DNA of 37,927 nucleotides. Origin: Maribacter sp. Its GTDB lineage: Bacteria > Bacteroidota > Bacteroidia > Flavobacteriales > Flavobacteriaceae. Where the stretch lies: NCBI GenBank assembly GCA_022865355.1, contig JALHST010000138.1:1-37927 (forward strand), given 5' to 3'. The position numbers and the translations under genes are program-made. Positions 737-16,658 of the stretch are shown in pieces (position 1 is the stretch's first letter; every line of letters starts with the position of its first letter). Under the pieces are notes generated by a model that saw nothing but the letters and a program-made list of their open reading frames with translations, made no database searches and had not been told where the DNA came from.

Positions 737-1207
737 TTATGCCGTTGCTTCGGCCGCTGCCAATTTTTTTGAGAAGTTCGAAACGAATTGTTTAAAAAGT
801 TGATCAGATACCATCGTAATCAAGCGCGAGCCAAATTGGGCGATTTTACCATTGATGGTGACATCCATGATAGCATCCAATTTTGAGCCGCCATCTTCCT
901 TTTCAGTGATATTCATGGTCATCGTCATTTCTGCATTGCCATTACCCTTCACATCGACACCGTTTCCTGTCAGTATTATTTTTCGGTTATCCGCATCGAC
1001 TTCATCATAAAATATATCCGCATCGTATTTAGCCCCGATGGGGCCAAATTTCATACCCACTTTTCCTTTGTAATGATTATCCCCCACTTTTTCCTCTATG
1101 GAAACGCCAGGAACACAATCCATTACCTTTTCAGGGTCAATAAGGTGCTCCCATACTAAGGCGGGTGATTGCGGGACTTCAAAGGATTTTTCTAATTGTG
1201 TTTTCAT
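737..1207 (-). CDS. coxG: CoxG-like SRPBCC protein of CO dehydrogenase cluster
   Basis: This is a 156-residue START/SRPBCC-fold protein. The N-terminal segment, with ALVWEHLIDPEKVMDCVPG at about residues 17-35, is the CoxG signature, and the domain fills nearly the whole chain. CoxG proteins are not catalytic. Family work links them to anchoring CO dehydrogenase at the membrane and to passing its electrons to the quinone pool. Many CoxG proteins carry an extra hydrophobic C-terminal tail; this one ends right after the domain (KKLAAAEATA) with no membrane segment. It lies 102 bases after coxL in the same direction and is followed by a terminator, so it is likely the last gene of coxMSLG. The start is the ATG at 1207. 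Confidence 0.88.
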   Translation of the reverse strand: MKTQLEKSFEVPQSPALVWEHLIDPEKVMDCVPGVSIEEKVGDNHYKGKVGMKFGPIGAKYDADIFYDEVDADNRKIILTGNGVDVKGNGNAEMTMTMNITEKEDGGSKLDAIMDVTINGKIAQFGSRLITMVSDQLFKQFVSNFSKKLAAAEATA

Positions 1208-1309
1208 CTGTTTGCTTTCTTTTTCATTGATTTAGGGTTTATTCAGGCCCACTCCGACCTCTAGCTACTTTTATTTGGAGGAATGCTTCCTTAAGCGAAC
1301 CTCATACCT

Positions 1310-3670
1310 TTATTTCGAATGTGCCTGTATCGCCTCCCATACTTTGGCCGGGGTAATGGGGATATCCAGATGTTTTATTCCCAAAGGAGACAGAGCATCT
1401 ATAATAGCATTTGCAATTGCAGGAGGTGCACCGACCGTTGGCGACTCCGCTACCCCTTTTGCGCCCAATGGATGGTGGGGTGAGGGTGTGATCGTATGCC
1501 CTGTTTCCCAATGTGGCGATTCTACCGCCGTTGGCACCAGGTAATCCATAAAAGTCCCGTTCAATACATTGCCTTCATCATCATACTCGATACCCTCATA
1601 CATGGCTGGAGCGATACCTTGGGTGAGGCCTCCATGAACTTGTCCTTCAACGATCATGGGGTTGATGATATTACCACAATCATCAATGGCAACAAAGCGC
1701 TTTACATCTATTTGCCCCGTTTCCTTTTCTACTTCCACGACACAGATATAGGCCCCGTTGGGGAAGGTCATATTTGGCGGATCATAATAATAAGTTGCTT
1801 CAAAGCCAGGTTCCATACCAAGAGGAAAATTGGTATAGGCAGCAAAAGCTACATCTTGGATCGTCTTGGACTTTTCAGGGGCCCCCTTTACAAAATATTT
1901 ACCTACTTCCCATTCGATATCCTCTTCACTTACCTCCAAAAGATACGCGGCGATTTTCTTGCCCTTATCACGAATTTTTCTGGCGGCCATGGCAGCTGCG
2001 GCTGCTCCTGTGGGTGTACTTCTACTCCCGTAGGTACCTAGGCCATAGGGAGCCGTATCGGTATCTCCTTCTTCCACTTGGACCTGATCGTAGGGAATAC
2101 CCAACTCTTCAGCTACAATTTGGGCATAGGTCGTTTCATGGCCCTGGCCTTGGGATTTTGTTCCAAAACGCGCAAGTACCTTACCTGTAGGATGGACCCT
2201 GATCTCCGCACTATCGAACATAGCAATTCCAAGGATATCAAAGTCTTTAGAAGGCCCGGCACCCACCACTTCGGTAAAGGTACAAATGCCGATACCCATC
2301 AATTTTCCTTGCTTTCTTTTTTCGGCTTGTTCCTTGTTATAATCGGCGTACCCGATCATCTTCATGGCTTTGTGAAGTGTTGCCTCGTAATCCCCACTAT
2401 CATAGTGCCAGCCTAGAGGAGAGGCATACGGAAATTGGTCTTTCTTTATAAAATTTTCTAGCCGCAGTTGCGCCGGATCCTTACCTATTTCAGCGGCCAA
2501 TTTATCGACCATTCGCTCAATTGCATGTACGGCTTCGGTAACCCGGAAAGAGCAGCGATAGGCGACCCCCCCAGGGGCCTTATTGGTATATACGGCATCC
2601 AATTCAGCAAAAGCATGGGCATAATCATAAGAACCTGTACAGATGGAGAACATGCCCGTAGGATATTTTGAAGGGTTTGCAGAAGAATCGGTATATCCGT
2701 GGTCCGCTAAGGTTTTTACCTTAAAAGCCTGAATTTTGCCCTCCTTGGTCGCCGCCAACTCACAATCCATATGATAATCCCGTGCAAAACCATTGACCAG
2801 GTTTTCGGAACGGTCTTCGATCCATTTTACCGGTTTACCGATCAAAAAAGACGCTGCAATCGCAACGACATAGCCTGGATAAACGGGTACCTTTCCTCCA
2901 AAACCACCTCCAATATCCGGAGAAATTATTCGTATTTTTTCTTCTGAAAGTCCAACATGCCCAGCTACCAAGGCCAATATGGTACGGATCGCATGAGGGG
3001 CCTGCGAAGTCATGTATATTAGCATTTTATGGGTATCCTTATCATAGGAAGCGACACAGCCACAGGTTTCGATGGAAGCGACATGAATTCTTGGAAGATA
3101 GACGCGTTCCTTCACGACGACATCAGCTTTTGAGATCACTTCGTCGGTTTTTGCCCGATCCCCCTGTTCCCAATGGTATATGTGGTTGTCTTTCTGTCCT
3201 TTTTTATCAGGACGCAACAAGGGTGCGTCTTTGTCCAATGCCTTAAAAGGGTCAACGATTGCCTGCATGGGTTCATAATCTACCTCGACCGCCTCGGCGC
3301 CATCTACCGCTATGTATCTGTCAGTGGCAATTACAGCGCATACTTCCTGTGATTGGTGCATGATCGTATCGGTAGGCAAAACCATTTGGGTATCCGACAG
3401 CAATGTCGGCATCCAATGTAAATTATATTGCGCCAGATCATATCCCGTAATAACCGCCAGCACTCCTGGGATGGCCAGCGCCTTCTCCTTATTGATACTT
3501 TTTATCTTTGCATAGGCATACGGACTGCGGACCATGACCATGGTCAACATGCCCGGTAATTTCACGTCATCCACATAGTTGCCCTTACCGTGTAGAAATC
3601 TGGCATCTTCCTTTCTCTTTACTGAGTGGCCCATTCCGCCTACTGCTGCTGATGTTTTACATTTGAACAT
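1310..3670 (-). CDS. coxL: Aerobic CO dehydrogenase large subunit, form I (CoxL)
   Basis: The catalytic subunit of the Mo-Cu carbon monoxide dehydrogenase oxidises CO with water to CO2 in the cytoplasm. The 786-residue protein has the form I loop VAYRCSFR, whose Cys373 matches the copper-ligand cysteine (Cys388 in Oligotropha carboxidovorans). Near the end, KGVAESPTVG supplies the conserved active-site glutamate (Glu742, matching Glu763). PDIGGGFGGKVPVY and VKWIEDRSENL are further CoxL hallmarks. Form II relatives have AYRGAGR instead. A TTG at 3685 would add five residues; I prefer the ATG at 3670, which follows an A-rich stretch. It begins shortly after coxS (stop 3690-3692) and forms part of coxM-coxS-coxL-coxG. 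CO oxidation itself is inferred from the motif. Confidence 0.95.
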   Translation of the reverse strand: MFKCKTSAAVGGMGHSVKRKEDARFLHGKGNYVDDVKLPGMLTMVMVRSPYAYAKIKSINKEKALAIPGVLAVITGYDLAQYNLHWMPTLLSDTQMVLPTDTIMHQSQEVCAVIATDRYIAVDGAEAVEVDYEPMQAIVDPFKALDKDAPLLRPDKKGQKDNHIYHWEQGDRAKTDEVISKADVVVKERVYLPRIHVASIETCGCVASYDKDTHKMLIYMTSQAPHAIRTILALVAGHVGLSEEKIRIISPDIGGGFGGKVPVYPGYVVAIAASFLIGKPVKWIEDRSENLVNGFARDYHMDCELAATKEGKIQAFKVKTLADHGYTDSSANPSKYPTGMFSICTGSYDYAHAFAELDAVYTNKAPGGVAYRCSFRVTEAVHAIERMVDKLAAEIGKDPAQLRLENFIKKDQFPYASPLGWHYDSGDYEATLHKAMKMIGYADYNKEQAEKRKQGKLMGIGICTFTEVVGAGPSKDFDILGIAMFDSAEIRVHPTGKVLARFGTKSQGQGHETTYAQIVAEELGIPYDQVQVEEGDTDTAPYGLGTYGSRSTPTGAAAAAMAARKIRDKGKKIAAYLLEVSEEDIEWEVGKYFVKGAPEKSKTIQDVAFAAYTNFPLGMEPGFEATYYYDPPNMTFPNGAYICVVEVEKETGQIDVKRFVAIDDCGNIINPMIVEGQVHGGLTQGIAPAMYEGIEYDDEGNVLNGTFMDYLVPTAVESPHWETGHTITPSPHHPLGAKGVAESPTVGAPPAIANAIIDALSPLGIKHLDIPITPAKVWEAIQAHSK

Positions 3671-3689
3671 AATTTTTCGTTTCAATAGG

Positions 3690-4178
3690 TTAGACTGCCG
3701 GTTCTTTTTCTTTTTGCATTTCTTTCGCGGCCTGTTGCAGCGACTTTACAATATTGTTGTACCCAGTGCATCTGCATAGATTGCCAGAGATACCCCAACG
3801 GATTTCTTCCTCGGTAGGATTCGGATTGTTCTTTAAAAGATCGATGGATCGCATGATCATTCCCGGGGTGCAAAAGCCGCAATGCAATCCGTGTTGATCA
3901 TGAAAGGCCTGTTGCAATGGATGGTTGGTACCTTCTGGGGCAACTCCCTCTATAGTCGTAATCTCAGCGCCATCGGCCCTGACCGCAAGGTAAGTGCAGG
4001 ATTTTATGGATTTGCCATCCAAAAGAATGGTGCAGGCCCCACAATTTGAGGTATCGCACCCGATATGAGTTCCCGTAAGATCGAGATTTTCACGGATAAA
4101 ATGCACCAACAACAATCTAGAGTCGACCTCTTTGGTAATGCTTTCCCCATTTACCTTTAGTGTTATTTTGTGTTTCAT
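3690..4178 (-). CDS. coxS: CO dehydrogenase small iron-sulfur subunit (CoxS)
   Basis: This 162-residue protein carries two [2Fe-2S] clusters and passes electrons from the molybdenum site in CoxL to FAD in CoxM. The plant-ferredoxin-type cluster is held by Cys41, Cys46, Cys49 and Cys61 ([10 protein letters not shown]...C). The C-terminal helical domain has the second set, Cys100 and Cys103 (CGFCTPGM) and Cys135 and Cys137 (LCRCTGY). CTGYNNIV after the last pair is typical of CoxS-type subunits. There is no signal peptide, so the enzyme is cytoplasmic. It sits 11 bases after coxM and about 20 before the coxL ATG, which implies cotranscription. Confidence 0.95.
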
Positions 4179-4189
4179 GGAATTCTTGT

Positions 4190-5059
4190 TTAGCTAGTTG
4201 CCCTTTTCAATGCAGAGCGCAACATACGTTCGGTTAATGTTTTTGTTATCGATCTTTTATAGGCTTCCGAACCTCTCAAATCAGAGGTGGGTTCACAGTC
4301 TTCGCTGGCGATTGTCCCAGCTTGTACTATCAGGTCTTCGGTTATTTTTTTTCCCTTAAGCAAGTCTTCGGCCCTTGATAAACGCAAGGGAACCGAACTA
4401 AGGTTGGTCAAACCAATCCCGATTTGTCGGCAAACTCCACCAGCATCCAACTCCACATGCACCGCCACACCTGCTGTGGCATAATCACCTACTTTACGTT
4501 CTACCTTGTGGTAGGCCCCACCACTTCCTTTTTTATGTTTCGGTATTTGAATTTCTACCAAAACGTCGGAAGGTTCCAATGCCGTCATATAAAAACCATG
4601 GAAGAAATCGTCAATAGGGATCGATTTTTTACCATTGGCCCCCTCGGCGATAATGGTGGCCCGCATGGCAAGCATGAGTGAAGGTTGGTCATTGGCGGCA
4701 TCGCCATGGGCAATGTTGCCTCCTATGGTACCAACGTTTCGAACCGAAGGGTCTGCCGTCAACTTTACGGCATCCGAAAAAATGGGATATCCTTTTTGGA
4801 TCAGTAGGGAGTGTTCCATTTCAGTCTGGGTGGTCAAGGATCCTATTTTCAATAAGTCACCTTCTTCCTTTATATAGGAAAGTCCCTTTATCTTACTAAT
4901 ATCAATGATGTGTTCAGGGGTTGCGAACCGCAGCTTCATCATGGGGAGCAAGCTATGCCCTCCTGACATGTATTTGGCGTCTTCACCAAGAGTCTGTGAC
5001 AAAGCGATCGCATCCTTCAAAGAAGTCGCCTTGTGGTACGTAAAATTGGCAGGAATCAT
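4190..5059 (-). CDS. coxM: CO dehydrogenase medium FAD subunit (CoxM)
   Basis: This 289-residue FAD-binding subunit of the molybdopterin dehydrogenase type receives electrons from the CoxS iron-sulfur clusters. The two flavin-binding segments are present: [13 protein letters not shown] at about residues 32-44, and [16 protein letters not shown] at about 112-127. The C-terminal CO_deh_flav_C-like domain follows from about residue 175. As first gene of the minus-strand operon it starts at the ATG at 5059. The region upstream, shared with the divergent cysteine desulfurase, holds a candidate promoter. Confidence 0.94.
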
Positions 5060-5217: not shown

Positions 5218-5246
5218 ACTTGGCTATTTACAAAGCGATTCAGCCT

Positions 5247-6428
5247 ATGTATTCCCAACTATATCTCGATTACAATGCGACGACTCCCTGCGCAAAGGAA
5301 GTGGTCGCTGTTATGCTGCCGTATTTTAATGAAGATTTCGGAAATCCTTCAAGTAGTCATCATTCGTATGGTTGGATAGCCAAAAGTGCGATAGAAAATG
5401 CTACCCATGACATAGCCAAAACCTTAGGAATATCTGAAAACGATTTGATTTATACTTCGGGATCGACCGAAAGTTGCAATATGGTTTTGAAAGGCATAGC
5501 TAAAAAAATGCAGGGGAGAGGAAACCATATCATCACCACCAAAGCTGAGCACAAGGCTGTTTTGGATACGTGCGCCAATTTGGAAGACGAAGGATTTAAC
5601 GTATCTTATTTGGATGTGGATTCTAAAGGACTTATTGATATCGAGCAGTTCAAAAAGGTATTGCGTCCAGATACTATATTGGTTTCGGTGCTTTATGCCA
5701 ATAATGAAACTGGGGTCATACAACCACTAGAAGAACTATCGCAGTTGACCCATGCCAATAATGCGTTACTTTTTTCCGATACTACCCAGGCATTGGGGAA
5801 AACCCAGTTGGCAAAAGTGCTCGATTTGGTAGACTTTGCTTGCTTTTCAGGCCATAAGGTATACGGCCCCAAAGGTATTGGTCTAGTGTTCGCAAAGAAT
5901 AACCAAAATTATGGAGTGCTGCCCAGTTTAATACAAGGTGGTGGACAACAAAACGGCCAGCGTGGTGGAACGCTAAACACCCCTGGTATCGTTGGTTTAG
6001 CAAAAGCCATTCAGTTGGCACATGAAAGATTGGAAGAAGAAATAGTACGAATAGTAAAATTGAGAAACCAATTGGAAGCGGGTTTGTTGGCCATTGAACT
6101 ATCAGTTTCCAACAGCACATCGACCAAACGATTGCCCAATACGGCAAATATTTCTTTTAAGTATGTTGACGGCGCAAACTTATTGAGTGCACTAAGCAAC
6201 CAACTTGCGGTCTCTAATGGGTCTGCTTGTAATTCAGCCTCGGTCGAGCCTTCCCATGTACTGCTGGCCATGGGTGTTGATCACAGTTTGGCCTATGCGT
6301 CCCTTCGCTTGAGCCTGGGTCGCTATACGACTGAAAATGATATTGAAAAAACCATTGAAATTATCACAAAGGAAGTTATACGACAACGCGAGAACAATAT
6401 TCTCTGGGAACGTAGGCTTGATCAATAG
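5247..6428 (+). CDS. IscS/NifS-type cysteine desulfurase
   Basis: This PLP enzyme takes sulfur from cysteine and holds it as a persulfide. The 393-residue protein begins with YLDYNATTP, a class V aminotransferase start. Lys204 in SGHKVYGPKG is the PLP lysine and Cys328 in GSACNSASVEPS is the persulfide cysteine, both close to E. coli IscS numbering. It is therefore a group I enzyme, not the SufS type used for general Fe-S assembly in many Bacteroidota. There is no scaffold gene beside it. It is divergent from coxMSLG and ends 30 bases from the convergent xdhC, so a role in sulfurating the molybdenum site, like Rhodobacter NifS4 with XdhC, is likely. An upstream in-frame TTG at 5220 would add nine residues but overlaps the probable promoter. 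Confidence 0.9.
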   Translation: MYSQLYLDYNATTPCAKEVVAVMLPYFNEDFGNPSSSHHSYGWIAKSAIENATHDIAKTLGISENDLIYTSGSTESCNMVLKGIAKKMQGRGNHIITTKAEHKAVLDTCANLEDEGFNVSYLDVDSKGLIDIEQFKKVLRPDTILVSVLYANNETGVIQPLEELSQLTHANNALLFSDTTQALGKTQLAKVLDLVDFACFSGHKVYGPKGIGLVFAKNNQNYGVLPSLIQGGGQQNGQRGGTLNTPGIVGLAKAIQLAHERLEEEIVRIVKLRNQLEAGLLAIELSVSNSTSTKRLPNTANISFKYVDGANLLSALSNQLAVSNGSACNSASVEPSHVLLAMGVDHSLAYASLRLSLGRYTTENDIEKTIEIITKEVIRQRENNILWERRLDQ

Positions 6429-6458: not shown

Positions 6459-7565
6459 TCAAGCCCGCTCATGGATCGGGCCTGTCTTATCCCGAAGCAT
6501 ACCCCCTGAATTTCCTGAGAGAGCACTTAGTATTTCCCCGATTATACTAGTAGCAATTTCTTCTGGGGTATTGGCCCCGATTTGCAATCCGCAAGGCGAA
6601 TAAATTCGATTTTGCTCCTCCTTCGATAATAAACTTCCATTTGCCTTATATTCTTGAAGCATTTTATTAAAACGTTTTCTCGGCCCCAAGCAACCGATAT
6701 ATAGCGTGGGGCTTTTGACAAGTGCAACTAAATTGGCAAAATCGGTCTTATAATCATGGGCCATTAAAATTACCGCGGTACGTTCATCTATGAGGGGTCT
6801 TTCCTTCAAATCTTTAGGATATAAATTGGCGACTGATTTAATTTTGTCTTTTTTAAGTTTTTGAATGTTGCCGACCAAACTTACGTCCCAATCCAACACC
6901 TTGGCCAAATCGATCATCGGGTAAATGTCATAGTTGTCACCAAAGATTGCCAAATGATATTGGGCGGGCATGAATTCTATAAATATAAGGGCTTCCGTTT
7001 CAGGACAAACAAAACGGTAGGTGTCCGATCTCTTTTTTTTGATGACTTCCTTAATTTTATCCTTAATAAATGCTTGCATTCCTGCATGCCCACAATTTTC
7101 CAAAATTTGGCTCTCAGTGTCATAGTAAAAACTTTTTCCCAACCACATTTCATCGACCTCATTATTTATGGCGGTTATCGTGGCAATTATGTGCATCTGT
7201 CTTTTCGCGGTACATTTTTCCAACAACCTTATGGCCGATAACTCTGTATCGATAGGTACAATCAGCACATCTATGATACCATTGCATCCCAGGCCCACCC
7301 CAATTTCCTTGTCCTTCGAAGTATCATACGTGACAATAGAAGGTTTTTGCTTTAAAATGGCCATTTGTGACCTTCGAAGTGCATCTCCCTCTAAACATCC
7401 CCCACTTATACCGCCTTCATAAATGCCAGATTCGAAAACGACCATTCGGGCTCCTTCCCTTCTATAGGATGATTCTTCTACCCTAACGACCTGAGCAATG
7501 GCAGCCCTTTCATTGAGCGACGTATTGCTTTTAAAAAAATTGACAATCGATTTGATCTCCTTCAT
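6459..7565 (-). CDS. XdhC/CoxF-family molybdoenzyme maturation protein
   Basis: XdhC proteins bind the molybdenum cofactor, accept sulfur from a cysteine desulfurase and hand the sulfurated cofactor to the apo-enzyme. This 368-residue protein has the N-terminal XdhC_CoxI domain with SSYRREGARM (about 32-41), GGISGGCLEGD (about 51-61) and GVGLGCNGIIDV. The C-terminal Rossmann-like domain runs from about residue 205 to the end. Its nucleotide loop reads IFGDNYDIYP, where relatives usually have a GAG-type loop, so dinucleotide binding may be altered. CoxF of CO dehydrogenase clusters belongs to the same family; I cannot tell whether this copy serves CoxL, IorB or both. Its start is the ATG at 7565, back to back with moaA. 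Confidence 0.87.
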   Translation of the reverse strand: MKEIKSIVNFFKSNTSLNERAAIAQVVRVEESSYRREGARMVVFESGIYEGGISGGCLEGDALRRSQMAILKQKPSIVTYDTSKDKEIGVGLGCNGIIDVLIVPIDTELSAIRLLEKCTAKRQMHIIATITAINNEVDEMWLGKSFYYDTESQILENCGHAGMQAFIKDKIKEVIKKKRSDTYRFVCPETEALIFIEFMPAQYHLAIFGDNYDIYPMIDLAKVLDWDVSLVGNIQKLKKDKIKSVANLYPKDLKERPLIDERTAVILMAHDYKTDFANLVALVKSPTLYIGCLGPRKRFNKMLQEYKANGSLLSKEEQNRIYSPCGLQIGANTPEEIATSIIGEILSALSGNSGGMLRDKTGPIHERA

Positions 7566-7705: not shown

Positions 7706-8689
7706 GTGAAAGATTCTTTTGATCGATCAATTGATTATGTACGCATCGCGGTTACCGATAGATGCAATTTACGATGTTTTTATTGTATGCCCAAAGAGGG
7801 AATATCTTATGAGCCTAAGGAACATCTGCTCAGCTATGAGGAGATTATCAGATTACTAAGCATTTTGGGCGGATTGGGTTTTCAAAAAGTTCGCTTTACG
7901 GGGGGAGAACCTTTTTTGCGAAATGATTTTATGAAACTTTTGGAGAATACGGCGTCACTTGCAGATTATAATTCCATACACATTACCTCCAATGGCACCT
8001 TGTTGCAAAAGCACCTCCCTAAATTAAAAGATCTTGGTATTACCAACATTAATCTTAGTATCGATTCTTTGGACCCAGAACGGTTTCATAAGATTACGCG
8101 ACGAAATGATTATGATAAGGTAATACAAACTTTTTATTTACTGATGGAAGAGGGATTTAAAGTCAAACTAAATGCCGTAATCATGCACGGGGTGAACACC
8201 CAGGACATCATTCCATTGGCCGAGCTGGCAAAAGAACATAAGGTCGATGTGCGGTTTATTGAAGAAATGCCTTTTAATGGCGGCTACAAGCAAAATATCC
8301 AAATGTATACGGCCAAACAAATTTTGAACGACCTAAAAGTTCATTACCCAACTATTGAAAAATTGGAGGGATTGCCTGGGGATACTGCCAGTTTATATAA
8401 AATTCTGGGTTATAAAGGAACGATAGGCATCATCGCCGCCTTCACCCGAACGTTCTGTGATACCTGCAATCGGCTGCGAATATCTTCCAAAGGCGATATC
8501 AAAACGTGTCTTTATGATGGAGGTGTTTTTAATATCAAAGACTACATGCGCTCAGGAGTGACAGACATGGAATTGTCCCTAAAATTCCAAGAACTCATCA
8601 AACTAAAACCTAAGGATGGTTTTATAGCGGAAAAATCTCGAGAAAATGTCGATCGACCCCTTGAAAGCATGAGTGTTATCGGAGGTTGA
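7706..8689 (+). CDS. moaA: GTP 3',8-cyclase MoaA
   Basis: This radical SAM enzyme, acting with MoaC, makes cyclic pyranopterin monophosphate from GTP, the first step of molybdenum cofactor synthesis. The 327-residue protein has the SAM cluster motif CNLRCFYC near residues 20-27, the GGEP segment (FTGGEPFLRND), and the C-terminal second-cluster cysteines in FCDTCNRLRISSKGDIKTC. It ends in the conserved Gly-Gly tail (SVIGG). The start is the GTG at 7706; no suitable ATG lies upstream, and the N-terminal spacing to the CxxxCxxC motif is normal. The gene is coupled to moeA: its TGA at 8687-8689 lies just before the moeA ATG at 8691. Confidence 0.95.
   Translation: MKDSFDRSIDYVRIAVTDRCNLRCFYCMPKEGISYEPKEHLLSYEEIIRLLSILGGLGFQKVRFTGGEPFLRNDFMKLLENTASLADYNSIHITSNGTLLQKHLPKLKDLGITNINLSIDSLDPERFHKITRRNDYDKVIQTFYLLMEEGFKVKLNAVIMHGVNTQDIIPLAELAKEHKVDVRFIEEMPFNGGYKQNIQMYTAKQILNDLKVHYPTIEKLEGLPGDTASLYKILGYKGTIGIIAAFTRTFCDTCNRLRISSKGDIKTCLYDGGVFNIKDYMRSGVTDMELSLKFQELIKLKPKDGFIAEKSRENVDRPLESMSVIGG
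8681..8685 (+). promoter_or_regulatory. Shine-Dalgarno site deciding the moeA start
   Basis: GGAGG lies five bases before the ATG at 8691 and inside the last codons of moaA. Strong Shine-Dalgarno sites are uncommon in this phylum. It favours 8691 over the in-frame GTG at 8673. Confidence 0.65.
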
Positions 8690-8690
8690 T

Positions 8691-9905
8691 ATGAATACCA
8701 CTTTCATCACATACGAAGCGGCCTTGGCGATTCTTGAAGCACACAAGAGCGTGTTTGCCAATGAAGTACGCCCCTTGGAAGACTGTACCGGAGCATGGCT
8801 TGCGGAGGATTTAATTGCCGATCGCGATTTTCCTCCCTTCGATAGGGTAACTATGGATGGTATCGCCATTGTATTCGCCGAATACGAAGCAGGGAGACGC
8901 ACGTTTCCTATCGAATCTCTCGCCCCTGCAGGCACCTCGCAACTATCGTTGCAGGACAGCGGCCATTGCATTGAAGTGATGACTGGCGCCATTATGCCCG
9001 AAAAGACGGATACCGTAATCAGATATGAAGATTTAGTAATCACCGATAACTCGGCCACCATTACGGTAGATTCGCTTCGATTCCGACAAAATGTCCATTT
9101 CAAAGGAATCGACATTTTAAAGGGGAATCGTATCGTAAGGCAAGGTGGCGCTATTTCAAGTGCCGAGATCAATATTGCCGCTGCCGTTGGAAAGTCGACC
9201 CTCCTTGTAAAAAAAATGCCCAAAGTGGTTATTATTTCAACAGGGGATGAATTGATCAATGTGGATGCAATTCCCAAATTACACCAAATTCGGAGGTCGA
9301 ATATTTATGGGATAAAGAACACCTTAAAAGAATGGGGGCTTAAAGCAGATCTTGCACATTTGCCTGATGACCCCGCCGAAATGAAGCGTATCATTCCCCA
9401 ACTTTTGGACTCTTACGAAGTACTGATATTTACAGGAGGCGTGTCGAAAGGCAAGTTCGATTTTTTACCGGAGGTACTTGAATGGGCAGGGGTTATGAAA
9501 TTATTCCATAAAATTCAACAGCGTCCTGGAAAACCCTTTTGGTTCGGCACCAATGGATCCCATAAGAAAATATTCGCCCTTCCGGGCAATCCGGTATCTT
9601 CTTTCGTTTGTTTGTATGTCTATTTCCAATTTTGGTTAAAAAAATCCTTGGGCGTCGAAGAACAGCCCATGTACGTCATTTTGGACAAAGATGTTTCCTT
9701 TCAGCCCGATTTGATTTACTTTTTGGAAGCCAACTTGGAAAGCCGGGCAGATGGGTCGCTTTATGCAAATCCTATCGAGGGAAATGGTTCAGGTGATTTT
9801 GCCAACTTGGTGAAGACCGATGGTTTTTTGGTGTTACCACAATATAAATCAAAATTTAAGAAGGGAGAAGTCTATCGTTTTGTACCTTATAGGTCAAAAT
9901 TTTAA
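8691..9905 (+). CDS. moeA: Molybdopterin molybdotransferase MoeA
   Basis: MoeA inserts molybdate into adenylylated molybdopterin. The 404-residue protein has the full MoeA layout: an N-terminal domain with FPPFDRVTMDGIAI at about residues 44-57, the MPT-binding domain with STGDEL, FTGGVSKGKFDFLPEVL and RPGKPFWFG, the loop ALPGNPVSSFVCLYVYF, and a C-terminal beta-barrel domain. It is the second gene of moaA-moeA. The usual partner, MogA or MoaB, which adenylylates the substrate, is not visible in the window and must be elsewhere if the pathway is complete. Confidence 0.93.
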   Translation: MNTTFITYEAALAILEAHKSVFANEVRPLEDCTGAWLAEDLIADRDFPPFDRVTMDGIAIVFAEYEAGRRTFPIESLAPAGTSQLSLQDSGHCIEVMTGAIMPEKTDTVIRYEDLVITDNSATITVDSLRFRQNVHFKGIDILKGNRIVRQGGAISSAEINIAAAVGKSTLLVKKMPKVVIISTGDELINVDAIPKLHQIRRSNIYGIKNTLKEWGLKADLAHLPDDPAEMKRIIPQLLDSYEVLIFTGGVSKGKFDFLPEVLEWAGVMKLFHKIQQRPGKPFWFGTNGSHKKIFALPGNPVSSFVCLYVYFQFWLKKSLGVEEQPMYVILDKDVSFQPDLIYFLEANLESRADGSLYANPIEGNGSGDFANLVKTDGFLVLPQYKSKFKKGEVYRFVPYRSKF

Positions 9906-9914
9906 AGAATCACA

Positions 9915-10370
9915 TTGGAAGCTATAAAATCAAGCTGCTGTAACACAAAGCTGCCGTCAAATAAAATTGCTGACGGTGCTAATGGTTCTATGTCATTCCT
10001 ATCAACTTTATTGCTGATATTGCTTCCTAAATGTCCCCTATGCATCACGGCCTATATGGGTGCTATCATCATGTTTTTCGATATAGAATACTCTCAATTA
10101 GTCCCTTTTCTTTTATATGCCAAACCAGTTTTGGGAGGTATCATCCTCTTATTGATCTTAATAAACTATAAAGGTAGGAGAACGCTTATTGCCCTGGGCA
10201 TTGCCAGTTGTGCTTTGGTGTTATTATTGCTATCAACCTATACCTTCATTTTATTAGTACCGTCCTGGATACTTTATTTCTCATTTTTCTTCGCCATTTG
10301 GTATAATGGCAACTTCCAGTATTTTTATCGATTTATGCGTTTAAGAAATCAGAAAAAAGCGGTTTCATGA
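9915..10370 (+). CDS. Small membrane protein with CC and CPLC cysteine motifs
   Basis: I do not recognise a named family with certainty. The 151-residue protein has a short hydrophilic N-terminus with an adjacent cysteine pair (SSCCNTK), then about three to four membrane segments (roughly residues 27-52, 57-81, 88-110 and 112-130). LLPKCPLCITAYMG lies in the first segment. Paired cysteines near the N-terminus plus a CxxC in the first helix recall MerT/MerC-type metal carriers, but similarity is only at that level. Nine bases separate it from moeA, and it ends at the shared terminator, so it belongs to the moaA-moeA transcript. A role in metal (for example copper) or thiol handling for the molybdoenzymes is a guess. 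The start is TTG at 9915; the ATG at 9990 would remove the CC pair. Confidence 0.65.
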   Translation: MEAIKSSCCNTKLPSNKIADGANGSMSFLSTLLLILLPKCPLCITAYMGAIIMFFDIEYSQLVPFLLYAKPVLGGIILLLILINYKGRRTLIALGIASCALVLLLLSTYTFILLVPSWILYFSFFFAIWYNGNFQYFYRFMRLRNQKKAVS

Positions 10371-10382: not shown

Positions 10383-11166
10383 AAAACTGGGTGCCCAGCC
10401 CGTTGATCAGCAAGACGCGCATGCCCACTATAAGAACGAGGATTCCCGTAATGAGTTTAATGCTATTACCGGTCAATTTGTTCAAACTGATTCGAATGCC
10501 CAATTGCCCACCCAGCAAGACGGCTACTATAAGACCTGATGCCTCGAGCCAAGGTATTTCGAAGGTGCCGTTGATCAACAACCCCCCAATGCCCGATACC
10601 GAATTCACCAAAATAAAAAAACTTGCCAATGCAGCAATCTTAATCGATTTGTCCCATTTCATATGGTTAAGGATAGGTGCCAGAAAAATTCCGCCCCCGA
10701 TTCCTACCAAACCTGATAACAGACCGATGCCCCCACCCAGTATGTAGTTCATATAGGGCGGATAATTTCGATTGACCTCTTGCGATGAAGTCACTTTATA
10801 GGTTTGATAGATCAGGGCCAATGACGAGATTATCAAGGCGGCCCCTAAAATGATAAAGAAGATATGCTCCTTGAGTCGAAAGGATGCCCCGAGGAATGCC
10901 ATGGGAATACTGGTAATGATAAAAGGCAAGAATTTCTTAAAATCGAGGTGTCCGTTTTTAAAGTACAGATAGCTACTCCCCGATACTACTACCAAATTGC
11001 ACACCAAGGCGGTACTTCGTATCGCGAAGAAACTCGTAAATACCAGCGTCAGAATGGCCAGATAACTAGATCCACCTCCAAATCCTACTGAGGAATACAG
11101 GGTGGCAATAATAAAAAATCCGATACACAACAATGCCAAGCCCTCAATATTTTGTGGCATAGGCAT
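10381..11166 (-). CDS. TauE/SafE-family membrane permease
   Basis: This 261-residue integral membrane protein has about eight predicted helices and the family's two half-repeats. FFIIATLYSSVGFGGGSSYLA lies in the first half and GGGIGLLSGLVGIGGGIFLAP in the second; the repeated GxGGG turns are typical of TauE/SafE (formerly DUF81). Characterised members export sulfite, sulfoacetate or other organosulfur anions. It overlaps the moeB-rhodanese gene by 23 bases and is the last gene of the operon. A link to sulfur or oxyanion traffic for cofactor synthesis is plausible but not shown. The start is the ATG at 11166; a second ATG at 11160 is equally possible. Confidence 0.85.
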   Translation of the reverse strand: MPMPQNIEGLALLCIGFFIIATLYSSVGFGGGSSYLAILTLVFTSFFAIRSTALVCNLVVVSGSSYLYFKNGHLDFKKFLPFIITSIPMAFLGASFRLKEHIFFIILGAALIISSLALIYQTYKVTSSQEVNRNYPPYMNYILGGGIGLLSGLVGIGGGIFLAPILNHMKWDKSIKIAALASFFILVNSVSGIGGLLINGTFEIPWLEASGLIVAVLLGGQLGIRISLNKLTGNSIKLITGILVLIVGMRVLLINGLGTQF

Positions 11167-12217
11167 TCAAGTTGTTAATACCTCCTTTTACATTGATAAA
11201 AGTGGTCTTTGGTTGAAGTTCGCGAAGGGTTGCCACAGCCTGATGACTTCGTACCCCTGACTGACAAATGACGTACACGGGACCATTGGCACTTATTTCG
11301 TTTATTCGCGTTTCCATTTCCGCCAATGGAATATTTACCGTTTTGGGCAGGTGAAAGGCATTAAATTCGCTTCGGGTCCGCACATCGATGCAGACGACAT
11401 CCTCACTTGAATGTAATAATTCAAATTCAGGGGCCCCGATGGCCGATACGGGTACCTGACAATCAAAATCATAGGTTGATTTTAGTGCCTCAATATCCAG
11501 GTTTTTATTTAGCCTTGAAAATTTAATTTTGGTCAAGCTTTGATCCAAACCGTTATAAAGAAGGAGTTTGCCTGAGAGTACTTCCCCGATTCCCGTAATC
11601 ACCTTGATGGTTTCCATGGCCTGAAAATTTCCAACAATTCCGGGGATAATTCCTAAAACCCCATTTTCTTCGCAACTAGGAATCTCGGCAGGTCGAGGCA
11701 TATTCTTGAACAAACAGCGATAGGTAGGCCCTTGTTGAAAATTAAAAACGCTCACTTGACCTTCAAAACCATGTAAGGCACCATAAACAAAAGGTTTTTT
11801 AAGGATTACGCAGGCATCGTTGATCAAATAACGTGTCGGGAAATTATCGGATGCGTCAACGACCATATCATATTCCCGAATAATTTCCAGGGCATTTTCA
11901 GTCGTGAGAAAGGTAGGGTAGCCGGTTAATAAAGTTTCTGAATTTTGAGCATTTAGTTTTTCAATGGCTACGGCGACTTTCGATTTTCCGATGTCAGATT
12001 CACCGTACAAGACCTGTCGATGAAGATTGGAGGCCGATACAATATCGTTATCGACCAAGCCCAATGTGCCCACGCCCATGGCATTCAAATAGGTCATAAC
12101 CGGTACCCCTAGCCCGCCGGCACCAACCACAAGGACCTTAGCTCGGGCCAATTTTTCTTGCCCTACCGGGCCGAAGTCCTTTAAAATAGTTTGTCGGGAA
12201 TACCGAGTTGAGTTCAT
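11144..12217 (-). CDS. moeB: MoeB/ThiF-type adenylyltransferase fused to rhodanese
   Basis: The protein activates the C-terminal glycine of the MoaD sulfur carrier by adenylylation. It has 357 residues: a ThiF/MoeB domain (about 1-235) and a rhodanese domain (about 260-357), the MoeBR/MoeZ layout in which the second domain can supply the sulfur. The ATP loop is VVGAGGLGVP at about residues 30-39 and DASDNFPTRYLINDAC follows near 120. The rhodanese active loop is CQSGVRS with Cys318. Of the four zinc cysteines of E. coli MoeB (PCYRC and CxxC), only the one in TYRC remains, so the structural zinc site seems lost. It overlaps the mobA-like gene by four bases and sits in one operon with moaD. ThiF-like substrate overlap cannot be ruled out. 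Confidence 0.88.
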   Translation of the reverse strand: MNSTRYSRQTILKDFGPVGQEKLARAKVLVVGAGGLGVPVMTYLNAMGVGTLGLVDNDIVSASNLHRQVLYGESDIGKSKVAVAIEKLNAQNSETLLTGYPTFLTTENALEIIREYDMVVDASDNFPTRYLINDACVILKKPFVYGALHGFEGQVSVFNFQQGPTYRCLFKNMPRPAEIPSCEENGVLGIIPGIVGNFQAMETIKVITGIGEVLSGKLLLYNGLDQSLTKIKFSRLNKNLDIEALKSTYDFDCQVPVSAIGAPEFELLHSSEDVVCIDVRTRSEFNAFHLPKTVNIPLAEMETRINEISANGPVYVICQSGVRSHQAVATLRELQPKTTFINVKGGINNLNAYATKY

Positions 12218-12810
12218 ACCCTTATTAATTTTAGCATGGCTTCTTTGTATTCCTCCTCCGAATTCGCATTGAGAAGAACCTGTTCATTCCTAGGGAATAC
12301 CAAGGCAACATCACTGTTGATCAAATATTTGCGAGGGCAGGTTCCATGACCGCTTCGGAGATAATCAATCGATTCCGATAGGGCACTTGATTCCCAAATA
12401 GCGCACAAAGGCTCCGGTAAGGGATTTTCTTTTAAGGCAAAGGCCGTCGCTTTTTTTGCTTGGTTCCTGGCGGCAATTAATTCTTTCAAGGCGGGTTGGT
12501 CGATCAAAGGCAAATCACAGGCTAAGACCAGCCAAGCCACATCGGGGTGCTGCTTGTGTGCCGATATAAGTCCGTTAAAGGGGCCCTTAAATTCATCGTC
12601 ATCGACAATCACATTCACATGCGACGGTAATTCGGATAGCTGATCCCCTCGTATACTCATGAAAGGTTTTTCACAGACCGTTGCCAGTAAACCATATAAA
12701 TAATCCCTTTGGGGCATGCCGTGATAATTGATCAATCCCTTATCCTGTCCCATTCGGGTACTTTTACCACCCGATAATATCAAACCATAGATTTTATCGA
12801 CCGAAGTCAT
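12214..12810 (-). CDS. mobA: MobA-like molybdenum cofactor nucleotidyltransferase
   Basis: This 198-residue nucleotidyltransferase adds a nucleotide to the mature cofactor. The N-terminal loop LILSGGKSTRMGQDKGL matches MobA (guanylyltransferase) better than MocA, which usually starts LAAGxSxRMG. LVLACDLPLID carries the metal-binding aspartate. CO dehydrogenase and IorAB-type enzymes normally carry the cytosine dinucleotide form made by MocA, so the true nucleotide used is open. The start is the ATG at 12810, set by GGAGG at 12820-12816; an upstream in-frame ATG at 12885 would add 25 unlikely residues inside moaC. It overlaps moaC by 17 bases and moeB by four. Confidence 0.82.
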   Translation of the reverse strand: MTSVDKIYGLILSGGKSTRMGQDKGLINYHGMPQRDYLYGLLATVCEKPFMSIRGDQLSELPSHVNVIVDDDEFKGPFNGLISAHKQHPDVAWLVLACDLPLIDQPALKELIAARNQAKKATAFALKENPLPEPLCAIWESSALSESIDYLRSGHGTCPRKYLINSDVALVFPRNEQVLLNANSEEEYKEAMLKLIRV

Positions 12811-13267
12811 TTTTACCTCCTGTTTTTTGTTCCAACTGAATATCGGAAATTTGTATATCATGCGATAGCGCCTTGCACATATCATAAATTGTCAATGCGG
12901 CGATCGATACCCCGGTCAATGCTTCCATTTCGACGCCCGTACGATCTTGGCATTTAACCATACAGACGATTTCCAAAGAACGTTCCTTGGGAAAAATGTC
13001 TATATCTATTTTGGATAGGTTGATCTGATGGCACAGGGGAATCAGTTCAGAGGTGCGCTTTGCTGCCTGGATTCCCGCAAGAATGGCCGTCTGGAGAATA
13101 CTCCCCTTTTTGCCCAAAAATTCTTGGGACGCCAGTGAATCGAATACCTCTTTTGGAAAGATTACCTGGCCCGAAGCCATCGCCATACGATCGCTTTTTT
13201 CCTTGTTGGATACATCGACCATAACGGCCTTTCCGGCTTCATCCAAATGTGTAAGATTCTTTGACAT
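12794..13267 (-). CDS. moaC: Cyclic pyranopterin monophosphate synthase MoaC
   Basis: MoaC converts the MoaA product into cyclic pyranopterin monophosphate. All key segments are visible in this 157-residue protein: LIPLCHQINLSKID at about residues 75-88, CQDRTGVEMEALTGVSIAAL at about 106-125, the MCKAL helix and the C-terminal KTGGKNDFGR. Length and motif order are normal for the family. It follows moaE after 28 bases and overlaps the mobA-like gene. Its partner moaA is in the convergent operon some 5 kb away. Confidence 0.95.
   Translation of the reverse strand: MSKNLTHLDEAGKAVMVDVSNKEKSDRMAMASGQVIFPKEVFDSLASQEFLGKKGSILQTAILAGIQAAKRTSELIPLCHQINLSKIDIDIFPKERSLEIVCMVKCQDRTGVEMEALTGVSIAALTIYDMCKALSHDIQISDIQLEQKTGGKNDFGR
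12816..12820 (-). promoter_or_regulatory. Shine-Dalgarno site deciding the mobA start
   Basis: GGAGG on the minus strand lies five bases upstream of the ATG at 12810, inside the end of moaC. It is the second strong Shine-Dalgarno site of the cofactor genes; both sit where two reading frames overlap or abut. Confidence 0.65.
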
Positions 13268-13295: not shown

Positions 13296-13718
13296 CTAAG
13301 GATGGGCAGAAACCCAAACTGTTTTATTACGAAAAATTTCCTTTTTCCAAATGGGAACGCGATCCTTGAGGGTATCGATCAAGAAACGACAGGCCTCGAA
13401 ACATTCGCTTCGGTGTGCTGAAGAAGCTCCGACGATGACTACGGGTTCTTCCACTTTTTTAATCCCCGTGGCATGACGCAGTACCAATTTGTTCAAATCC
13501 CATTTCGAAAAGGCCTCATCGGCAATCTTTCTCATTTCCTTCAAGGCCATGGTCTTGTAGGTTTCGAACTCCAACGCCACCACCGCTTCCTTGTTCGTAA
13601 ATTCCCTTACCGAACCGATAAAAACACAGATACCTCCACTTTGTGCATGGGAAAGTTCCGAATACACACGGGAAGTATCAATGGTATCTACAATTTCTAT
13701 GATTATTTTTTTCATCAC
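13296..13718 (-). CDS. moaE: Molybdopterin synthase large subunit MoaE
   Basis: MoaE is the catalytic subunit of molybdopterin synthase; with thiocarboxylated MoaD it adds the dithiolene sulfurs. The 140-residue protein shows the family's FIGSVRE segment near residues 33-39, RHATGIKKVEEPVVIV, SSAHRSECFEACRFLID near 99-115, and the active-site lysine stretch VPIWKKE near 121-127. It overlaps moaD by four bases, the usual coupling for these two subunits, and precedes moaC. Confidence 0.95.
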   Translation of the reverse strand: MMKKIIIEIVDTIDTSRVYSELSHAQSGGICVFIGSVREFTNKEAVVALEFETYKTMALKEMRKIADEAFSKWDLNKLVLRHATGIKKVEEPVVIVGASSAHRSECFEACRFLIDTLKDRVPIWKKEIFRNKTVWVSAHP

Positions 13719-13957
13719 CCTCCACTAACTGGCGGAATAATGGCTATTTCATCATTCCGACCTAAAGGTACATCATCTTCGGCATACTCACTATTTACGG
13801 CAACGGCAAAAGACGACAAATTAGAAAATTCTGGGAATTTTCGTTTTAGAAATCGCTTCAATTGCCCGACCGAAAGAAGATCTTCATGTTCCCCTTCAAG
13901 CCGCAACCGCGATTCGCCCACAATATCCTTAGCAATTCCAAAAAGTAGTACGTCCAT
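13715..13957 (-). CDS. moaD: Molybdopterin synthase sulfur carrier MoaD
   Basis: This 80-residue ubiquitin-fold protein ends in Gly-Gly (AIIPPVSGG), the terminus that MoeB adenylylates and that is then turned into a thiocarboxylate for MoaE. Its size and the DEIAIIPPVSGG ending are standard. It starts five bases after iorB and overlaps moaE by four, so the cofactor genes are transcribed together with the molybdoenzyme they serve. Confidence 0.93.
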   Translation of the reverse strand: MDVLLFGIAKDIVGESRLRLEGEHEDLLSVGQLKRFLKRKFPEFSNLSSFAVAVNSEYAEDDVPLGRNDEIAIIPPVSGG

Positions 13958-16179: not shown

Positions 16180-16196
16180 CTTGTTTTATTTTGTGG

Positions 16197-16658
16197 TTAT
16201 ACCATTTTTTCAGCGGCAACGGCCACCGCCTTTTGAATGCGATTATATGCCGCACATCGGCAAATATTACCTTGCATGGCATTCTTGATATCCTCCTCAC
16301 TTGGATTCGGATACTTGGCCAAAAAGGCCGATGCGGTCATTATCTGTCCCGCTTGGCAATATCCGCATTGGGGGACATCAACGGCTTTCCATGCCTGCTG
16401 GACCGGATGGGTTCCATCGTTAGAGAGCCCTTCGATGGTAGTGATCGATTTACCATCCAATTGAGAGACCTGCAATTGGCAGCTGCGGGTGGCGTTTCCA
16501 TCGACATGAACGGTGCATGCCCCACATTGCCCTATACCACAGCCATATTTTGTACCTACTAGGTCAAGATGGTCACGCAATGCCCATAGCAAAGGGGTCT
16601 CCGCAGTGGCATCGACAGCGTGGTCCTGTCCATTAATTTTTAAATTGTACGTTGGCAT
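16197..16658 (-). CDS. iorA: IorA-like [2Fe-2S] subunit of molybdenum oxidoreductase
   Basis: This 153-residue small subunit has two [2Fe-2S] clusters. The ferredoxin-type ligands are in [10 protein letters not shown] near residues 40-49 with a later cysteine in TRSC, and the second set in [10 protein letters not shown] and [15 protein letters not shown] and CAAYNRI distinguish it from CoxS (CTPGM, CTGY) and place it with IorA. It has no signal peptide, so it must be exported by hitch-hiking on the Tat signal of IorB. It is the first gene of the eight-gene operon, with a -7 box just in front of the ATG at 16658. Confidence 0.92.

Follow-up and report, generated by a model that had tools for sequence, protein, structure and literature searches.

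This study concerns a 37,927-nucleotide stretch of DNA from Maribacter sp. (contig JALHST010000138.1 of assembly GCA_022865355.1; hereafter the window) and, in particular, the genes for a form I carbon monoxide dehydrogenase (CODH) at its beginning. The window is an entire contig (C73) of the host genome (G000; 3.97 Mb, 319 contigs, 99.7% complete, 2.6% contamination), so that its gene list stops at the contig end, within coxD. We found that the operon runs on into a second contig (C178) as coxMSLGDEF, and that the coxF product encoded there carries a C-terminal YHS domain behind a body of the XdhC family. Our reading, to which we give a probability of roughly 0.7, is that this form I CODH operon has in CoxF a copper-specific maturation factor. 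The genes, the domains and their distribution, the conserved cysteines and the predicted folds are what we observed; docking of CoxF to the enzyme, binding and transfer of copper, and oxidation of carbon monoxide (CO) are predicted from these sequences. What looks new is a CoxF with an exchangeable, putatively copper-binding arm.

The host coxF gene lies after coxE (contig C178, 1372-2382). In Pfam searches its product matched XdhC_CoxI (51.6 bits), XdhC_C (95.1 bits) and, C-terminally, YHS (PF04945; 40.9 bits against a curated cut-off of 30.3), with three metal-ligand cysteines in the pattern NPVC...YFCCDGC. For comparison, a scan of genome contigs starting from the window CoxL yielded 73 loci; because of this starting point, the sampling leans to relatives of the window CoxL. 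We split the XdhC-family frames from the collected loci at 200 bits on a CoxF profile, a line of our own choosing, into 86 CoxF-like and 80 other proteins (duplicates L001, L082-L084, L112 and L113-L117 omitted). Tails were then counted with Pfam on each member singly, at E<=0.01 rather than at the curated cut-off, and independently of the YHS and HMA profiles that we built from the tails found here. Both body domains (PF02625 and PF13478) were present in 86/86 CoxF-like proteins; 68 carried a YHS tail and 6 an HMA tail, while neither domain was found at this threshold on any of the 80 other matches, 77 of which have Pfam XdhC domains. It is this extra tail, on 74 of 86 members, that sets the CoxF-like proteins apart from the XdhC/CoxF/CoxI family with which they share their body.

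The sources of YHS-bearing CoxF proteins include Bacteroidota, SAR324, Neomarinimicrobiota, Chloroflexota with Thermomicrobium, Dormibacterota, an actinobacterial metagenome-assembled genome (MAG), Deinococcus, Natronorubrum (Archaea) and Paraburkholderia/Caballeronia. CoxF was visible in 38 of the 42 near relatives of the window locus, each time with the YHS fusion (38/38). The 12 tail-less CoxF-like proteins comprise nine from alpha-proteobacterial plasmid loci, two second copies from Neomarinimicrobiota (L048 and L051, in which the YHS-bearing gene follows coxG and the bare one lies further down), and one frame truncated where its contig stops (L060). Nine form I loci yielded no CoxF-like frame (L009, L015, L044, L046, L050, L059, L074, L075 and L092), with weaker XdhC frames in L046, L050 and L092. 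Within the YHS tails, the three cysteines that correspond to metal ligands named in the accessible part of PMC4626032 were kept in 67, 67 and 68 of 68 proteins. Like the YHS/TRASH domain (PF04945) of, for example, the Mycobacterium phlei adenylyl cyclase, the host tail thus passed the curated cut-off, with three cysteines that are nearly always kept in CoxF tails; it differs from that domain in being fused to a molybdoenzyme maturation factor, and the first ligand position in CoxF tails is mostly Asn (47/68) and not Asp (19/68). In the AlphaFold model of a YHS-bearing CoxF, the linker (residues 260-279) was predicted to be disordered and the YHS blocks had predicted local distance difference test (pLDDT) values of 83-91, which points to a folded tail. 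A Foldseek search with this model returned XdhC structures and Rossmann folds, with no YHS structure among the best 50 matches listed.

In our samples, the distribution of the tail follows the copper-containing form of the enzyme. In a sample of 296 genomes of the phylum (Bacteroidota), strong CoxF matches (E<1e-50) occurred in exactly the six genomes with form I CoxL, and the next-best XdhC scored 2.4e-20. Form II CODH-like enzymes, which have the loop AYRGAGR and thus no copper-ligand cysteine, served as a counterpart: we collected 22 form II CoxL genes from the 296-genome sample and a 299-genome sample of the host's family, and examined 16-18 kb around each. Like the form I clusters, these Bacteroidota loci mostly had coxD and coxE as neighbours (19/22 each), whereas any XdhC was present in only one, and CoxF-like proteins and copper-type tails were found in none (0/22 each). 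Eight genomes have both forms (G179, G050, G058, G003, G008, G312, G342 and G394), and the form II locus examined lacks CoxF in each of them. Among 72,556 plasmid records, an XdhC-YHS match over at least 80% of the query was obtained in six, all of them carriers of form I CoxL; form I CoxL was present in 19 of the records listed, at 55.6-67% identity (43% in the record that follows them), and of these 19 the same six had the YHS fusion and in the remaining 13 the CoxF match ended where XdhC ends. Four form II plasmid loci had no XdhC (L093) or only tail-less XdhC of 47-97 bits (L094-L096). We conclude that, across the samples examined, the tail is restricted to clusters that encode the copper-containing enzyme. 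Since CoxD and CoxE are mostly also found beside form II, CoxF is not, and only CoxF has copper-type domains, the roles of these helpers can be separated by gene content.

A second copper-type domain was found in the same place on CoxF. In a Rhodothermales MAG (L047), four genomes of family f13 and one of family f39 (L149-L153), both families belonging to the same Genome Taxonomy Database (GTDB) phylum as the window host, CoxF has an HMA tail instead of YHS. All six tails passed E<=0.01 in Pfam, the five that were scanned singly scored 31-45 bits against a cut-off of 24.8, and all six have the motif MSCxxC. The AlphaFold model of the L047 tail (residues 281-340) has the order beta-alpha-beta-beta-alpha-beta with pLDDT 92-97, behind a disordered linker; Foldseek aligned it with MerP (1osd) and with copper-binding domains, 2l3m and 2qif among them, at a root-mean-square deviation of 1.2-2.2 A. 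Its nearest PDB sequences were those of copper ATPases and CopZ, while MerP and zinc ATPases ranked lower. These tails therefore share motif and fold order with CopZ/Atx1 chaperones (HMA, PF00403), but HMA is here a domain of CoxF and not a free protein, and it is absent from the window host's own CoxF. In trees of the XdhC part alone, made with a quick method and repeated without far rows, the HMA carriers formed one clade among YHS carriers, with Shimodaira-Hasegawa-like approximate likelihood ratio test (SH-aLRT) support of 97 (94 without far rows), and the tail states require four changes with all rows and three in the repeat. The HMA hosts are spread over three positions of the CoxL tree; CoxF may therefore move independently of CoxL, with the reservation that both are quick trees.

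These results can be placed beside what has been reported for Oligotropha (Afipia) carboxidovorans. According to the available text of PMC4240915, coxD, coxE and coxF mutants of this organism make apo-enzyme; the coxE and coxF mutant enzymes contain sulfurated molybdenum to varying extents and no copper, and CoxF was proposed to supply copper. A phytase-based copper route was proposed in the same paper. Within the part of PMC3471820 that we cite, CoxD is described as lacking copper-chaperone motifs, and CoxDEF jointly as a possible copper chelatase. In the mechanism that we propose, CoxMSL would oxidise CO and, by analogy, pass the electrons to the quinone pool, assisted by CoxG. The maturation work of CoxD and CoxE would be of a kind that form II enzymes need as well, and CoxF would carry out the copper-specific step: its XdhC body would dock to the apo-enzyme, and the C-terminal YHS domain, on its flexible linker, would bind copper and deliver it to the sulfurated molybdenum site. 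In the Rhodothermales MAG and the f13 and f39 genomes, the HMA copper-chaperone domain, which is unrelated to YHS, would fill the same place, and lineages with a bare CoxF would have to load copper otherwise. A wider version of this proposal, which we hold tentatively and at slightly less than even odds, makes CoxF a dedicated copper metallochaperone with an exchangeable arm: YHS in nine of the sampled phylum-level groups, among them Archaea, HMA in Rhodothermales and two other families, and possibly, next to a bare CoxF, a separate microprotein with a PCC ending in Rhodobacterales, while a MerC-like membrane protein of the Flavobacteriaceae and Saprospiraceae clusters would bring the metal.

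We next weighed the observations that speak against a copper-delivering arm. The tail was absent from CoxF in 9/9 alpha-proteobacterial loci examined, including that of O. carboxidovorans, from which the coxF mutant comes. It was also absent in the actinomycete Nonomuraea (L092), whose protein scored 115 bits and was hence counted among the other XdhC proteins, even though it falls within the CoxF clade of the tree. The arm is thus not essential to the chemistry. In addition, the two Neomarinimicrobiota carry a second, bare copy, and the Deinococcus tail (L088) scored 29.1 bits, below the YHS cut-off of 30.3, and lacks two of the three cysteines. As the CoxF trees show the HMA tail to have arisen once, the swap between tail types was a single event. 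The division of labour between a general CoxE and a copper-specific CoxF is not clean either, since CoxE is needed for copper in O. carboxidovorans and yet stands in 19 of the 22 form II loci; three form II loci have neither coxD nor coxE nearby. Finally, the relatives of the HMA tails among PDB sequences include the MerP and zinc ATPases mentioned above. YHS domains, moreover, can be structural or bind other metals.

Two other functions for the tail have to be considered in this light. The first is that it serves as a copper sensor or gate, so that CoxF would act only when copper is present and the tail itself would hand nothing over. The single YHS domain studied so far probably senses copper for the adenylyl cyclase to which it belongs, and a YHS-bearing cyclase is activated specifically by Cu2+ (both from the accessible part of PMC4626032); the tolerated absence of the tail in alpha-proteobacteria and Nonomuraea would also fit. 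We nevertheless consider a sensor unlikely. HMA domains are known mostly as metal carriers, with copper ATPases, CopZ and MerP as nearest PDB relatives here, and the tail sits on the very protein whose loss leaves the enzyme without copper (PMC4240915, available text). The second function, in which the tail would have nothing to do with copper and would be a zinc-type structural element or bind a partner, appears less probable still: YHS/TRASH domains do occur in proteins without copper chemistry, and the YHS of toluene-4-hydroxylase is described as having no bound metal in what we cite of PMC4626032, but a copper-chaperone fold substitutes for YHS at the same place on CoxF and, in the samples examined, the tail keeps to form I clusters. 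Delivery of copper by the CoxF tail therefore remains our preferred reading. A different candidate site, the motif MCPSHGTM that PMC4240915 (available text) proposes as the copper motif of O. carboxidovorans CoxF, was set aside, because its cysteine is at least 90% conserved in both the CoxF-like and the other XdhC proteins (line-up by eye) and so does not look copper-specific.

For the bare CoxF proteins, we looked for stand-alone YHS or HMA proteins nearby; in the stretches examined, none were found with the profiles built here. MHYT domains belong to proposed copper-binding sensors. A gene for an MHYT membrane protein was present in the stretches examined of 9/9 alpha-proteobacterial form I loci (L086, L091 and L142-L148). 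We did not adopt it as the alpha-proteobacterial replacement for the tail, as it may encode a regulator; other loci gave only two weak matches, in L090 (annotated as LytTR) and L097. In 4/4 Rhodobacterales form I loci, coxF is followed by a tiny reading frame that ends in K[FS]PCC (L091, 14312-14434; L145, 14252-14410; L146, 14257-14493; L148, 14816-14974), located before coxG where coxG is annotated. The same pattern search did not reveal it in the five other alpha-proteobacterial loci. It is possible that this frame encodes a stand-alone metal peptide beside the bare CoxF.

The enzyme itself is, judged by its sequence, an ordinary member of the form I Mo-Cu CODHs, and would be expected to oxidise CO. 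CoxL, the Mo-Cu subunit (1310-3685, minus strand), has 791 residues when read from a TTG codon; its likely start is the ATG at 3670, five codons further on, in agreement with the CoxL start of Robiginitalea. It scored 1205.2 bits on the curated model TIGR02416 (cut-off 991.15), and its best PDB chains were the CODH large subunits 8uem, 1ffu and 1n5w. The earlier note, made from the letters of the window alone, had read AYRCSFR in CoxL; the translation has it within the active-site loop GVAYRCSFR, which aligned with 8uem and 1ffu and includes the copper-ligand cysteine. These two structures are presumably the enzymes of Mycobacterium smegmatis and Hydrogenophaga pseudoflava, respectively. A tree of forms I and II, which that note had advised, placed CoxL as it expected: among 65 sequences the window CoxL lay on the form I side, separate from the ten form II rows and with an SH-aLRT of 100 for either side, in a tree made with a quick method (LG+G4) in which long branches were flagged, chiefly form II row L093. 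The window CoxL paired there with that of Eudoraea L009 (SH-aLRT 98). In this Eudoraea MAG (Ww469), coxL is present on three contigs (L009, L055 and L059), probably from co-binned strains.

The cox frames are genuine genes, and CoxL, too, scored above cut-off for its Pfam domains. CoxM, the flavin adenine dinucleotide (FAD) subunit (4190-5059, 289 residues), matched FAD_binding_5 and CO_deh_flav_C, and CoxS (3690-4178, 162 residues) matched Fer2 and Fer2_2, all above the Pfam cut-offs. Read by eye, both [2Fe-2S] sets of CoxS, eight cysteines in all, are in place (CDTSNCGAC...C and CGFC...CRC), and CoxM has the flavin motifs GGHSLLP and TIGGN, as had been claimed. CoxG (737-1207, 156 residues) matched COXG (PF06240) above cut-off, and the first 672 positions of the window encode the N-terminal 224 residues of the AAA+ ATPase CoxD, open at the contig end. 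As described before, all five genes point the same way, on the minus strand. The two contigs have a 12-base end in common and CoxD continues in frame on contig C178 exactly where Robiginitalea CoxD predicts, followed by coxE (246-1379) and coxF; from this we take the host operon to be coxMSLGDEF, split by a contig break. The coxMSL order with coxD, coxE and coxF, which characterises form I, is thereby found in the window and contig C178 together. With the O. carboxidovorans, 8uem and 1ffu enzymes the window CODH shares its subunits, the loop with the copper-ligand cysteine, the [2Fe-2S] and FAD motifs and the CoxD, E, F and G helpers. It differs from that of O. carboxidovorans in gene order (MSLDEFG there), in the YHS domain that O. 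carboxidovorans CoxF lacks, and in the length of CoxG (205 residues there).

The earlier note had also pointed to a difference in gene order, M-S-L-G-D with a separate xdhC. The order does depart from that of O. carboxidovorans, but the apparent end at coxD is merely the contig end, and the cluster's own XdhC protein is CoxF on contig C178. The xdhC of the window (6459-7565, minus strand) encodes a different family member without YHS or HMA. We rejected it as the copper factor of the CODH: it scored 48 bits on the CoxF profile, compared with 466 for the host's CoxF, and has no tail. In the CoxF/XdhC tree its wider clade includes XdhC proteins from genomes without form I CoxL. A look at other Bacteroidota, also proposed in that note, showed the complete coxMSLGDEF order in 37 of the 42 near relatives, the remaining five being cut by contig ends. 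As MSLGDEF also occurs in Paraburkholderia, and as families f13 and f39 together contribute five form I loci with the order L-G-D-E-F, we do not regard the gene order as a novelty.

One could hold that the form I CODH operon of the window is an ordinary one and that there is no more to it. Form I CODH clusters in Bacteroidota are indeed already known, with form I coxL reported in PMC6794299, PMC10305171, PMC13240472 and PMC13203968 (each cited from its accessible part, and for Bacteroidota describing genes rather than CO uptake), and the complete order in the near relatives agrees with this. We consider it rather unlikely that this is the whole story, since the copper-domain pattern on CoxF is absent, under these words, from the literature searched: in a search that left out most subscription journals, CoxF with 'YHS domain', or YHS with XdhC, gave no paper, CoxF with 'copper chaperone' gave four, PMC3471820 among them, and no search combined CoxF and HMA.

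The pattern matters because the copper route to the Mo-S-Cu site is known mainly from O. carboxidovorans, an organism in whose CoxF Pfam detects no copper domain. Having a concrete module of copper type on CoxF should make this poorly understood loading step easier to test, and nature offers two tail versions, YHS and HMA, for experimental swaps. The XdhC-YHS/HMA fusion could also help annotators to mark true CO oxidisers in the lineages that have it.

With respect to the host, 42 of the 73 loci were near relatives with CoxL 88-95% identical to that of the window; 39 of these bear the name Flavobacteriaceae or that of a genus in this family, which bears out the flavobacterial origin read from the sequence earlier. 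They include Maribacter, Robiginitalea, Eudoraea, Robertkochia, Pelagihabitans, Gillisia and MAGs; among the carriers of the operon are Eudoraea chungangensis KCTC 42048, Robertkochia marina and Maribacter orientalis. The possibility that the contig stems from contamination, or represents an alien island in this genome, would be favoured by the 2.6% contamination of the assembly and by a G+C content that is 46-47% across coxLSM and 40-42% in the adjoining 6 kb. However, other parts of the window reach 46%, the nearest relatives of the cox and flanking molybdenum cofactor genes among the collected loci are Flavobacteriaceae, and the operon runs on into a second contig of the same genome, so that we regard such an origin as very improbable. 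Form I CoxL is nonetheless a patchy trait, present in 8/299 genomes of the host's family (an even sample that includes the host genome itself) and in 6/296 of the phylum. RuBisCO (PF00016) gave no match in the host genome, while the same search matched in 5/14 control genomes; the RuBisCO expected of a carboxydotroph, which grows on CO with the Calvin-Benson-Bassham cycle, thus did not come to light in this genome. A NiFe hydrogenase large subunit was not found in the genome either, and it has two COX1-family oxidase genes. Together, the lack of a RuBisCO match and the oxidase genes are consistent with the suggestion that CO, if oxidised as predicted, is likely an energy supplement to heterotrophy rather than a basis for autotrophy. 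In the accessible part of PMC13203968, the 13 ocean-isolated species characterised as CO oxidisers are all Pseudomonadota, and Bacteroidota and others are known from genomes.

The length of CoxG varies among the loci. Among CoxG proteins scoring at least 60 bits, the only ones measured, those of the main flavobacterial clade (window 737-1207 and L009-L041) end 26-30 residues past an FGSR-type motif, and the others (including L015, L021 and L054) 49-71 residues past it, some with a GGMIKSVVKGLF-like end. We rejected a short CoxG as a flavobacteria-only trait, because in Marivivens, Aestuarium, Pseudosulfitobacter, Shinella and Deinococcus form I CoxL is likewise accompanied by an annotated CoxG of 149-154 residues.

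Upstream of coxM, and divergent from it, lies a gene for a NifS/IscS-like cysteine desulfurase (5220-6428, plus strand), a possible sulfur donor, followed by the second xdhC. Thirty-four near-relative loci extend 4.5 kb or more upstream of coxM, and both genes were present there in 33 of them. Because there is a precedent for sulfur supply by XdhC and NifS4 (PMC4240915, available text), we infer by analogy a role in sulfur supply for this pair. Next come the molybdenum cofactor genes moaA (7706-8689, plus strand; Radical_SAM and Mob_synth_C) and moeA (8673-9905, plus strand; MoeA_N, MoCF_biosynth and MoeA_C).

Behind moeA lies a gene for a 151-residue membrane protein with the motif PKCPLC (9915-10370, plus strand), a candidate metal importer for the CODH. 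The family has an N-terminal CC and the motif PKCP[LF]C, and its 34 collected members, including that of the window, all come from form I CODH loci; in Saprospiraceae L042 and L043 and in the Thermoanaerobaculia MAG L044 the gene also lies upstream of coxM. MerC (PF03203) gave no match in the window protein, and three of six relatives scored 17.9-24.1 bits, below the cut-off of 27.6. In the 296 phylum genomes the protein matched the host genome and, weakly, one genome without form I CoxL, with no match in the five other form I genomes of that sample.

Further along, on the minus strand, follow genes for a moeB-like adenylyltransferase with a rhodanese end (11144-12217), a mobA-like nucleotidyltransferase (12214-12885), moaC (12794-13267), moaE (13296-13718), a moaD-like protein of the ThiS family (13715-13957) and a second, IorAB-like molybdenum hydroxylase (13963-16658). 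As this second hydroxylase stands beside the moa genes, the molybdenum cofactor genes serve at least two enzymes. Its large subunit starts with a twin-arginine/lipobox-like stretch when read by eye.

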